This document shows, piece after piece, positions 1 to 4,143 of a stretch of 64,000 bases of DNA; within the stretch, counting starts at the first letter, position 1; every line of letters starts with the position of its first letter. Source of the stretch: Alphaproteobacteria bacterium (GTDB lineage Bacteria > Pseudomonadota > Alphaproteobacteria > CAAHEQ01 > UBA3637); contig JAFYHG010000013.1 of assembly GCA_017539265.1 (NCBI GenBank), positions 1 through 64,000 of the forward strand, written 5' to 3'. The position numbers and the translations under genes are program-made. Under the pieces are notes generated by a model, which worked only from the letters and a program-made list of their open reading frames with translations, searched no databases and was not told where the DNA came from.

Positions 1-223
1 CATCGTCACATTCATCGCCATAATAACACTCGGCCCGAGCGGTATTTAATGACCACTTAAACTTTTTCCCCAATGTCGGCCAAAAAGCTTTTTTATCCCG
101 GAGCAAACCGGATACTTCCTGCTTTTTCCCCACTCTTTTCACATCACCGATCCTACCCGACAACAGGGCAAAAAATATTGAAAAAAATAAGAATACAAAA
201 AATCTTTTAATTTTCCGTGCCAT
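1..223 (-). CDS. Exported Cys-containing protein, N-terminal part only
   Basis: The ATG at 221-223 is preceded by a GGAG ribosome-binding site, and the frame is open to the window edge, giving about 74 residues. The start is a basic cluster (MARKIKR) followed by about 15 hydrophobic residues (FFVFLFFSIFFALLSG), which looks like a signal peptide or membrane anchor. The end of the visible part contains ECYYGDECDD, a Cys pair resembling the CYNDSDC motif of the upstream prepilin-like gene. Only 14 bases separate it from that gene's stop, so the two are probably co-transcribed. The function is unknown; a surface or pilus-associated partner of the upstream protein is an inference. Confidence 0.6.
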   Translation of the reverse strand, partial: MARKIKRFFVFLFFSIFFALLSGRIGDVKRVGKKQEVSGLLRDKKAFWPTLGKKFKWSLNTARAECYYGDECDD

Positions 224-237
224 TTTATTCTCCTACT

Positions 238-2319
238 TTACAAAGGGATGATAAGACCACCCGCACCAGGACCCTTGGAACAATCACATGATTTAAATTT
301 TTTCGTCTTGGGTTTACCGCATTCATCCACTCCATCAGGTACCTCACATTCCTGTATCTGTGGCGTACACGGTTTCGGATCAGGTTCGGTAAACCCTAAA
401 CATATCTCTTCAACTTGATCACAACAGGAACCTTTCGTGACAGGAACTTTAGAACCCCACTTTCCCTTATCGGTTTTACAATCAGGGCAGCCTGAATAAT
501 CTATACGTCCGCCCCAACACTGCGCACACGATTTAGTATTCGTATTGGGATTCAAAAGAGGCGTCCCATTACGTACATTCACAACTTTGCCGCCATTACA
601 TGCTTTACATGGTTGTAATGCCTCTCGGGCCGCTGCACCGTGACAGCCTTGGCTACTAGATAGACCGCCACCACCTCTACTATGCTTCGTCCTGCCGGAT
701 GGCTGTGTTGAGGAATTACTACCGCCTGGACCCGGTCCCCTCGAACCCGATGAACCTGAAGAACACCATCCCCCAGGACAATTACTATCGGTTGGGTTAC
801 TCGTCGGGTTACTCGTCGGGTTGCTCGTCGGGTTACTCGTCGGGTTGCTTGTCGGGTTGCTCGTCGGGTTGCTCGTCGTGTTACTTGTGGTATTACTCGT
901 CGTGTTACTTGTGGTATTACTTGTAGTATTACTCGTCGTATTACTTGTGGTATTACTTGTGGTATTACTCGTGGTATTACTTGTGGTATTACTTGTTGTA
1001 TTACTCGTGGTATTACTTGTGGTATTACTTGTTGTATTACTTGTGGTATTACTTGTGGTATTACTTGTGGTATTACTCGTCGTATTACTTGTCGGGTTAG
1101 GAGTGCTCGTGGTAATAACCGGAGGATTACTACTTGAATTCGATGAAGACTCAGAGGACTCGGAGGAACTTGACGAAGATTCAGAGGACTCGGAGGAACT
1201 TGACGAAGATTCAGAACTGCTGCTTGAATCTGAAGGTCCTTCACTTGAACTTGAAGATCCCCCGGGTGGTGGCGGTGGTGGAACTGGCCCACTTGTTGTA
1301 CTTCCGCCAGGTCCGGTTGAAGTTGTCATTGAAGGACTTGCAGAAGAAGTACTGCTATTGCTACTTGAGCTCGATGGATTACTGCTACTTATCGGAACAC
1401 CACAGGGCCGATTGCATTCGCCCTTATCAGAACAGCATAAATCATATTCCCTATCCTTATTTGCCAAATCACATACCTGCCCGTATTGAATAACAGGAGC
1501 GCCATCTTCATCCCGTTCACAGCAGGGAGGTTCACATCCCATACATCTGAATAAACTGTCACTGGGAACACATCTGTGTAATTCGGCATCGCAACAATGA
1601 GTAACTTCGCAATCCGAATCATTATAACACGCCTCACCGACACCGTAATCAAACACAAAGGTCGCTACATTTTGATAAACTTTATTTAATATATCCGATT
1701 TATCCTGACCGGCCACAGTCGGTGGGATTTCTCCGTCCGGAATACAAACGATATCAGGATCTTTATACCCGTCACGCCGCAAATAAACATCGCCGTTCAC
1801 CGCATTACAGGTCGGATCAACAAACTCTAACCCTTTTAACCTTTCACATACGCCATAGGGGATATTGAAAACTTCCATAACTTGAATATTATCTTTATCA
1901 ATCTTACAATTCTCTTTAACCTCTGCACAACGGGCATCAGTACACTCACGCTTATAATCGTTATAGGCTATAACCTCAAACGTGTCATATATAAAGTCCC
2001 CTTCTGTATCGGGATGAAATTCCTTTAAATCCAATTCCTGTTGGAATACGCGTTGCTGACTGACGATAACAGATCGCGCCCGAACCCCTGTTACGATTGA
2101 ATTTGCCATAATCGTATTCATTGAATACCGATAAAGCCAAATACTGAAAATCGACATGACACTCATGATGGCAATAACAGCCAACATCTCAATCATCGTG
2201 CGCCCTAATTCGGATTTTTTCGATTTTTTCTTGGAAGAATCAGATGTTTTCGACTTTTTCCCGAATCGCAAAAAGCTGAACCTTTGCGACAGAAAGTCCT
2301 TAAATTTACGAAGTTTCAT
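238..2319 (-). CDS. Prepilin-like surface protein with tetrapeptide repeat array
   Basis: The start is set at the ATG at 2319, with GAGGA upstream; a TTG one codon earlier is less likely. About 40 basic residues precede a type IV prepilin-like signal: Gly, then RTMIE with Glu at +5, then a hydrophobic helix (MLAVIAIMSVMSIFSIW). A Cys-rich region follows (roughly residues 95-305, with paired and vicinal Cys), then a Ser/Pro-rich linker and tandem TSNT/TSNP units. A C-terminal Cys domain carries CKACNGG, CAQCWGG and GCPDC, resembling DnaJ-type CxxCxG zinc motifs. At 693 residues it is far larger than a pilin. The call of a prepilin-peptidase-processed surface protein rests on the signal; the adhesin or glycoprotein role is inference. 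No pilus assembly genes are in the window. Confidence 0.75.
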   Translation of the reverse strand: MKLRKFKDFLSQRFSFLRFGKKSKTSDSSKKKSKKSELGRTMIEMLAVIAIMSVMSIFSIWLYRYSMNTIMANSIVTGVRARSVIVSQQRVFQQELDLKEFHPDTEGDFIYDTFEVIAYNDYKRECTDARCAEVKENCKIDKDNIQVMEVFNIPYGVCERLKGLEFVDPTCNAVNGDVYLRRDGYKDPDIVCIPDGEIPPTVAGQDKSDILNKVYQNVATFVFDYGVGEACYNDSDCEVTHCCDAELHRCVPSDSLFRCMGCEPPCCERDEDGAPVIQYGQVCDLANKDREYDLCCSDKGECNRPCGVPISSSNPSSSSSNSSTSSASPSMTTSTGPGGSTTSGPVPPPPPPGGSSSSSEGPSDSSSSSESSSSSSESSESSSSSSESSESSSNSSSNPPVITTSTPNPTSNTTSNTTSNTTSNTTSNTTSNTTSNTTSNTTSNTTSNTTSNTTSNTTSNTTSNTTSNTTSNTTSNTTSNTTSNPTSNPTSNPTSNPTSNPTSNPTSNPTDSNCPGGWCSSGSSGSRGPGPGGSNSSTQPSGRTKHSRGGGGLSSSQGCHGAAAREALQPCKACNGGKVVNVRNGTPLLNPNTNTKSCAQCWGGRIDYSGCPDCKTDKGKWGSKVPVTKGSCCDQVEEICLGFTEPDPKPCTPQIQECEVPDGVDECGKPKTKKFKSCDCSKGPGAGGLIIPL
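787..1104 (-). repeat. 12-bp in-frame tandem repeat array (TSNT/TSNP)
   Basis: About 26 tandem 12-bp units lie inside the prepilin-like gene. In the protein direction there is one TPNP-type unit, then 18 TSNT units, then 7 TSNP units. The TSNT block creates 18 successive N-T-T sequons, whereas the TSNP units place proline after Asn and so break the sequon. Synonymous variation (TTA/TTG and TCG/TTG patterns on the + strand) shows the array is not freshly duplicated throughout. Confidence 0.93.
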
Positions 2320-3023: not shown

Positions 3024-4143
3024 AAGTCTGATGTTAGTTACCTTTGCGATTATTATGTTTGGTGTATCCTTGGCCGTATCGAGCCTTATTACAATACGGT
3101 GGACGGGGACGACACATTTAGGATTTTGGGTAAAATTCCTGATTGCGATTGGGATAAGCATTGTTTTTATGTCGCCCTTTGTTTTGCGGTTTCCGACTTC
3201 ACCGTTATTTGGCGCTTTTTGTAACGGAATAACATATGTTGCTTATTTTTTATTTGTCTGCATTTTTTTGTTTTTCTGCTTTATGATTGCGCGGGATGTG
3301 ATATGGTTTGTTTTGCATTTTTGGAAACATATATTCCCCTCTCCTTTCCTGCCGAGTGCGGTTTTACGAGCAAACGTCGGATTGTTGGTAATTGTTGTTA
3401 TATTGGCGACCTATTCGCTTTATGAAGGCATGCGTGTACCGGATGTAAAGAAAATTACCCTTTATTCGGATAAAGTGCAAAAACCGTTCAGTTTGGTAAC
3501 GTTACCGGATCTACACCTTCATCGCGCACTTTCAGGTAAAAAATTACAGAGAATTATTGAGCAAACAAATGCCTTAAAACCTGATGTAGTGGTTTTACCC
3601 GGTGATACCATTGATGATCGCGCAAATGCAATTGAAGACTTGGTTCCAATACTAGCAAATTTTAAGGCTCCCCTAGGCGTTTTTGCCGTGGACGGAAATC
3701 ATGAAATCTATGTCGGGACACAAGAAGCCCAACAGCACTTCAAAGCCACAGGAATTACTTACCTTTACAACGAATTTCGCGATTTACGTCCCGATATTCG
3801 AATCGCCGGTGTTCCCGATATTCAAAGTAACCGTGTCGGTCGCCCCGTAGACATGAAAAAGGCTATGCCCCAGACAAATGCATATACAATTTTATTGGCC
3901 CACACACCAAAGATGTTTGACCTACCGGATAATACGGCAGACTTACAACTATCAGGGCATACACATGGCGGACAAATTTTTCCATTTCATATTTTAGTAT
4001 GGATGGCGCAAAAATACTTCTCAGGGCTGTTTTATAAAGGGGAAAGAACCCTCTATGTATCGCGCGGCGTTAATCAGTGGGGGCCGCAAATGCGACTGTT
4101 GTCACCGGCTGAAATTACCTATATTCAAATTTTACCGCGATAA
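3007..4143 (+). CDS. Membrane-anchored calcineurin-like metallophosphoesterase
   Basis: A 378-residue protein with about four hydrophobic helices in its first 150 residues, then a cytoplasmic or periplasmic metallophosphoesterase domain. Metal-binding motifs are complete: D168-L-H170, GD at 199-200, GNHE at 230-233, an LLAHTP His, and GHTHGG from 317. The layout resembles the YkuE-like membrane phosphoesterase group; the substrate is unknown (phospholipid or nucleotide headgroups are possible). ATG codons at 3007, 3010 and 3031 all fit; the longest is given. It overlaps udg by 17 bases and ends directly against the stop of the convergent gene downstream. Confidence 0.85.
   Translation: MMSWSKSLMLVTFAIIMFGVSLAVSSLITIRWTGTTHLGFWVKFLIAIGISIVFMSPFVLRFPTSPLFGAFCNGITYVAYFLFVCIFLFFCFMIARDVIWFVLHFWKHIFPSPFLPSAVLRANVGLLVIVVILATYSLYEGMRVPDVKKITLYSDKVQKPFSLVTLPDLHLHRALSGKKLQRIIEQTNALKPDVVVLPGDTIDDRANAIEDLVPILANFKAPLGVFAVDGNHEIYVGTQEAQQHFKATGITYLYNEFRDLRPDIRIAGVPDIQSNRVGRPVDMKKAMPQTNAYTILLAHTPKMFDLPDNTADLQLSGHTHGGQIFPFHILVWMAQKYFSGLFYKGERTLYVSRGVNQWGPQMRLLSPAEITYIQILPR

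Follow-up and report, generated by a model that had tools for sequence, protein, structure and literature searches.

A modular prepilin with a long repeat-bearing stalk, probably a tip-exposed type IVb pilin, in an alphaproteobacterial family with small genomes

The modular prepilin gene and its surroundings

The window, that is, the whole analyzed stretch of 64,000 nt, starts with base 1 of contig C9, and the gene of interest lies at this contig end. It was read from the sequence as an open reading frame (ORF) on the minus strand (241–2319, stop codon at 238–240) that encodes, from its ATG, a protein of 693 aa, the modular prepilin. The order of parts given in the preliminary description, namely, a prepilin signal, a Cys-rich segment, a Ser/Pro linker, 18 TSNT and seven TSNP units, and a Cys-rich end, was confirmed in this ORF. 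The features are as follows:

241–2319, minus strand: coding sequence of the modular prepilin, 693 aa (ORF)
2203–2319, minus strand: leader of 39 residues, hydrophilic and basic, ending in ...KKSELG, with predicted prepilin peptidase cleavage after G39 (motif alignment with paralogues and relatives)
2047–2202, minus strand: N-terminal helix alpha-1, residues 40–91, RTMIEMLAV..., with E at +5 (helix 8–61 of the AlphaFold2 model, equal to residues 38–91)
1645–2046, minus strand: predicted globular type IVb pilin domain, about residues 92–225 (predicted structure and structure comparison)
1396–1638, minus strand: first Cys-rich module, residues 228–308, no Pfam family (sequence)
1093–1395, minus strand: Ser/Pro/Gly/Glu linker, residues 309–409, with a 30-bp repeat at 1145–1215 (sequence and tandem repeat search)
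877–1092, minus strand: 18 TSNT units, residues 410–481, encoded by 12-bp units with variation confined to synonymous third positions (sequence and tandem repeat search)
793–876, minus strand: seven TSNP units, residues 482–509, a unit variant with ACG changed to CCG (sequence)
241–789, minus strand: C-terminal Cys-rich head, residues 511–693 (sequence, Pfam and search of the family genomes)
2–223, minus strand: start of a downstream gene, truncated at the contig end, that encodes a small Cys-containing exported protein, MARKIKRF... (homologues beside other prepilin genes)

The protein contains 37 Cys residues in two clusters (residues 126–306 and 514–680), and the motifs CKACNGG, CAQCWGG, and GCPDC were confirmed at its C-terminal end. 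Residues 228–308 and 511–693 fall outside the pilin domain and constitute an extra C-terminal module; no Pfam family matched the Cys-rich pieces. Scanning for promoters and terminators yielded signals no better than those in shuffled sequences. Homologues of the small MARKIKRF... protein are encoded directly downstream of two further prepilin genes, on contigs C29 and C3 (L019, ~3427–3684, and L016, ~2008–2205). The association with three different prepilin genes suggests that a prepilin gene and a gene for a small exported Cys-containing protein form a recurring gene pair. The remaining scanned part of the window (12396–60514) is ordinary and encodes MipZ, phosphoglucomutase, RF3, a Clp-type ATPase, an HlyD/AcrB efflux pair, an M24 peptidase, an AddAB-like nuclease/helicase, and Tgt.

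Prepilin signal, pilin domain and pilus machinery

The motif LG/RTMIEMLAV places G39 at −1 and E44 at +5, which, together with the basic leader and the hydrophobic helix, assigns the protein to the class III prepilins. G39, R40, M42, and E44 are invariant across 44 aligned relatives, and the only trace of the prepilin methylation motif detected by Pfam was sub-threshold (N_methyl, E 0.052). An arginine at +1 is atypical among classical pilins; it is general in the bacterial family of the host.

The host genome (1.47 Mb in 33 contigs, 98.6% complete) encodes a prepilin peptidase with an A24 domain (PF01478). A type IVb pilus cluster was found on contig C17, with genes for a TcpQ-domain protein, a PilN-type secretin (the score of which was low because the sequence was divided at the boundary of the analyzed locus), PilO, PilP, a T2SSE ATPase, and a T2SSF membrane protein. 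Contig C15 encodes a second T2SSE ATPase, closest to PilT, and contig C21 encodes a VirB11-type ATPase. The gene for the latter adjoins that of an apparent VirB10-like protein (L012, 1366–3347), so that a type IV secretion system may exist besides the pilus. The preliminary description had reasoned that the lack of a prepilin peptidase or a pilus ATPase would argue for a plain anchored protein; both are present, and this objection to the pilus part of the reading falls away.

The structure of residues 31–310 was predicted with AlphaFold2 from an alignment with 42 relatives (pLDDT 79, pTM 0.69). The model comprises an N-terminal helix of 54 residues followed by an alpha/beta domain; at the level of prediction, this is the arrangement of a type IVb pilin, a long N-terminal helix packed on an alpha/beta head. 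In a Foldseek search of the PDB, ranks 1–8 were all occupied by type IVb pilins, albeit as weak matches (best E 0.05, none below 0.001). Comparison with VIA-align gave Z values of 7.4–8.6 for CofA, PilS, and TcpA (PDB 9iuf, 3fhu, and 3hrv, respectively), which were the only structures in this range, 5.1 for E. coli PilM, and at most 3.5 for unrelated enzyme folds. CofA, TcpA, and PilS thus resemble the predicted N-terminal domain in fold; unlike the modular prepilin, they lack long C-terminal modules, and the sequence identity is only 8–12%. Each score is moderate, but the gap in Z below the type IVb pilins and the fit with the type IVb machinery make a persuasive case that the N-terminal ~190 residues are predicted correctly as a type IVb pilin fold. 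With the signal, the predicted fold, the peptidase, and the assembly cluster, the initial assignment of the protein to the prepilins has become firmer.

A basic leader and a hydrophobic helix would anchor a protein in the envelope equally well, and the pilus is known here from its genes. Moreover, the prepilin genes are scattered in the genome and none is located in the machinery cluster. The modular prepilin might accordingly use its signal as a membrane anchor only, or serve as a pseudopilin-like subunit without ever being exposed on a fiber. We regard this as unlikely, given that the genome encodes type IVb-type machinery and that the predicted type IVb pilin fold extends past the helix. 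The reading that we prefer, with moderate confidence, is that of a modular type IVb pilin, probably exposed at the tip, in which a flexible stalk prone to slippage displays a binding head.

The repeat-bearing stalk and the Cys-rich head

About 200 residues separate the two Cys-rich parts of the modular prepilin. The stretch rich in Ser, Thr, Pro, Asn, and Gly, about 266 residues by a window criterion, is by far the longest among 99 sequences of the family; such stretches of at least 30 residues occur in only five of the 99, three of which are from the host genome. Within the stalk, 25 perfect four-residue units (18 TSNT and seven TSNP) are encoded by a 12-bp tandem array (797–1094, 24.8 copies) with a TRF score of 295–368, far beyond chance, and with higher periods of 24 and 36 bp.

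The 18 TSNT units differ from one another only at synonymous third positions. Over the whole array, the peptide is altered by a single kind of change, from ACN to CCN (T to P), and the units that carry it share the AAC and, in part, the AGC codons. Most simply, the TSNP block arose from one A-to-C change that was amplified by duplication or slippage of the 12-bp unit. The boundary between the T and P blocks, which had looked like a functional or an allele boundary, is best read in this way. When the minimum number of independent changes is counted, zero of five in the TSNT block and one of seven in the whole array are nonsynonymous; with only about five to seven inferred changes, the binomial P is 0.0005–0.0025 under no constraint. 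These few changes suggest that the TSNT peptide is maintained by selection, a result that weighs against a neutral minisatellite expansion in a linker without a role of its own, in which the T and P blocks would reflect two rounds of slippage. Such an expansion would account for the 12-bp units with their higher periods, for the absence of the TSNT repeat from the other family genomes searched, and for the lack of a comparable linker in most relatives. We consider it doubtful; it concerns the repeat only and does not conflict with the pilin reading.

Each TSNT unit contributes an N-x-T sequon, and a glycosylated, mucin-like stalk in which the T-to-P switch turns the sites off had been proposed. 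The modular prepilin indeed contains 23 N-x-S/T sites, 18 of them in a single run. However, shuffles of the same stretch yielded 15.9 ± 2.2 sequons compared with the 18 observed; thus, the sequons follow from the composition of the stalk. STT3/PglB, for which the preliminary description had suggested a search, is absent from the 98.6% complete host genome (a control search found the family in archaeal genomes), as is a Wzy_C O-ligase. In addition, the repeat sequons are T-S-N-T-T and do not conform to D/E-x-N-x-S/T; Campylobacter PglB needs the acidic residue at −2, although other PglB enzymes may be laxer. The linkers of the relatives, where present at all, differ in composition. N-glycosylation of the stalk is therefore unlikely. 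Five proteins of the PMT_2 family of GT-C enzymes were found above the cut-off (G000, C5:73563–83804, C23:18959–19360, and C27:47479–47862; L149–L153), three of them encoded close together on C5, and simple O-glycosylation by such candidate enzymes is possible. Yet, of L149, L150, and L154 (the last scoring under the cut-off), none matches an NCBIfam family or any specific protein-glycosylation family; each is recognized by the generic Pfam model alone. Taken together, the results leave the glycosylated stalk with little probability; the analysis corrects a tempting glycoprotein reading.

The C-terminal head has no Pfam family and no sequence match in the PDB, and a search of the other 42 genomes of the family for relatives of residues 543–693 found none. 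Although the two CxxCxGG units and the CPDC motif at its end resemble by eye a DnaJ-like zinc finger (PF00684), as had been noted initially, neither unit fits CxxCxGxG, and Pfam yielded no match at this end even at E 10. Export of the head is predicted, and the host genome encodes DSBA-family proteins, so that disulfides are likelier than bound zinc. A DnaJ-type finger is accordingly highly improbable. No known functional domain unrelated to pili was recognized in the extra module of the modular prepilin, whereas some were recognized in relatives. Because the head lacks a recognized family or relative, its putative binding role is proposed by analogy.

The prepilin family and the proposed role of the modular prepilin

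The same kind of N-terminus was found at 15 places in the 1.47-Mb host genome by BLAST and at 17 by profile search, in answer to the question raised at the outset of whether other proteins carry this signal. We extended the profile search to the bacterial family of the host, where all 43 genomes, 0.7–1.8 Mb in size, matched with six to at least 74 copies each; the same 43 genomes make up the whole sample of the order. Outside the family, only 12 of 237 genomes in a class-wide sample matched, with one to at least 13 copies, mostly of short proteins. The relatives are metagenome-assembled genomes of uncultured Alphaproteobacteria, several of them from gut samples of animals such as water buffalo, goat, sheep, and roe deer.

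In the prepilins of this family, the pilin domain is constant and the C-terminal parts are variable and mostly Cys-rich. A minority of the relatives carry extracellular modules that Pfam recognized, EGF-like and Hint modules among them. One C-terminal module, WWSA...C, is recurrent (L133, 3613–4071, and 18 relatives, about 19 carriers). Its structure was modeled from L133 with the 18 relatives (pLDDT 80.6), and nearly all of the best 50 matching structures were C-type-lectin-like domains (best Z 8.5); the second-best was the C-terminal domain of Bdellovibrio Bd2740. Foldseek gave no E value below 0.001, and the Z values are near the middling level of the tool, so that the agreement of the whole list outweighs the single scores. 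The module is predicted to adopt a C-type-lectin-like fold. Two further prepilins differ in their additions: in one (L088, 60–1469), a Hint/intein-like module (PT-HINT, E 3.7e-7) comes after Cys-rich repeats, and in the other (L094, 2668–4269), a DHSGS motif is similar to the MIDAS of vWA domains, although Pfam matched no vWA domain there. A prepilin signal on so long a protein, initially regarded as unusual, is hence the rule in this family, in which long modular prepilins prevail; what is unusual even within the family is the very long low-complexity stalk.

Modular pilins are reported as widespread, and 264 architectures have been described (PMC8179133). In Streptococcus sanguinis, PilB and PilC combine a class III signal and a pilin module with a grafted C-terminal module (vWA and lectin, respectively); the grafted modules are thought to be likely exposed at the tip, and adhesion was shown for PilB (PMC8179133). 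The modular prepilin has the same order of signal, pilin module, and extra C-terminal module. It differs in its predicted type IVb fold and type IVb machinery, in a repeat-bearing stalk of ~200 aa instead of a short linker, in a Cys-rich head that matches no recognized family, and in the bacterial family of its host, where the number of pilin-domain genes reaches at least 74 in a genome of about 1.3 Mb. A second parallel is PilV, a minor pilin of the type IVb pili of IncI plasmids with a shufflon (R64 and TP114), the variable ends of which decide recipient binding (PMC9045228). As in PilV, a constant N-terminal pilin part is joined to a variable C-terminal part, which in PilV binds the ligand, and the PilN/PilO/PilP/PilQ-type machinery, compared by NCBIfam and Pfam names, is like that of R64. 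In contrast to the shufflon, the variants here are separate, scattered genes.

By analogy with the adhesive modular pilins (PMC8179133) and PilV (PMC9045228), we infer that the modular prepilin is a minor pilin exposed at the tip, in which a flexible stalk carries a binding head stabilized by disulfides. The precursor would be cleaved after G39 by the A24 prepilin peptidase, and machinery of the PilN/PilO/PilP/PilQ/PilR type, the genes of which are present, would build the pilin domain of ~190 residues into a type IVb pilus. The bulk of the subunit would most likely place it, as a minor component, at the tip or close by. The stretch of ~200 residues rich in Ser, Thr, Asn, and Pro would be a flexible spacer that holds the disulfide-rich head off the fiber, where it may contact a ligand. 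Slippage of the 12-bp units could alter the length of the stalk while selection would keep the TSNT peptide, consistent with the synonymous variation. The head is one among many alternative C-terminal parts on the shared pilin platform, and this variety indicates that the whole repertoire probably serves attachment to the host, mucus, or neighboring microbes.

The literature searched, with incomplete coverage, contained no paper on the pilins or the signal sequence of this lineage and no description of an expansion on this scale (tens of genes per ~1.3 Mb). Given that modular pilins are already known to be widespread, the interest lies in how far these small genomes have expanded a type IVb scaffold that bears C-type-lectin-like and Cys-rich heads. 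More tentatively, the expanded modular type IVb pilins (at least 74 genes in some genomes, with C-type-lectin-like, EGF-like, and other heads) could be the main surface-recognition repertoire of this family of reduced-genome Alphaproteobacteria, following a PilV-like logic with separate genes, and with a stalk length that in some members might be tuned by repeat slippage. If true, this would explain how attachment to hosts or other microbes could come about in little-studied Alphaproteobacteria with small genomes, which are known largely through gut metagenomes, and it would provide a testable case of pilin diversification in which modules are swapped on one scaffold.
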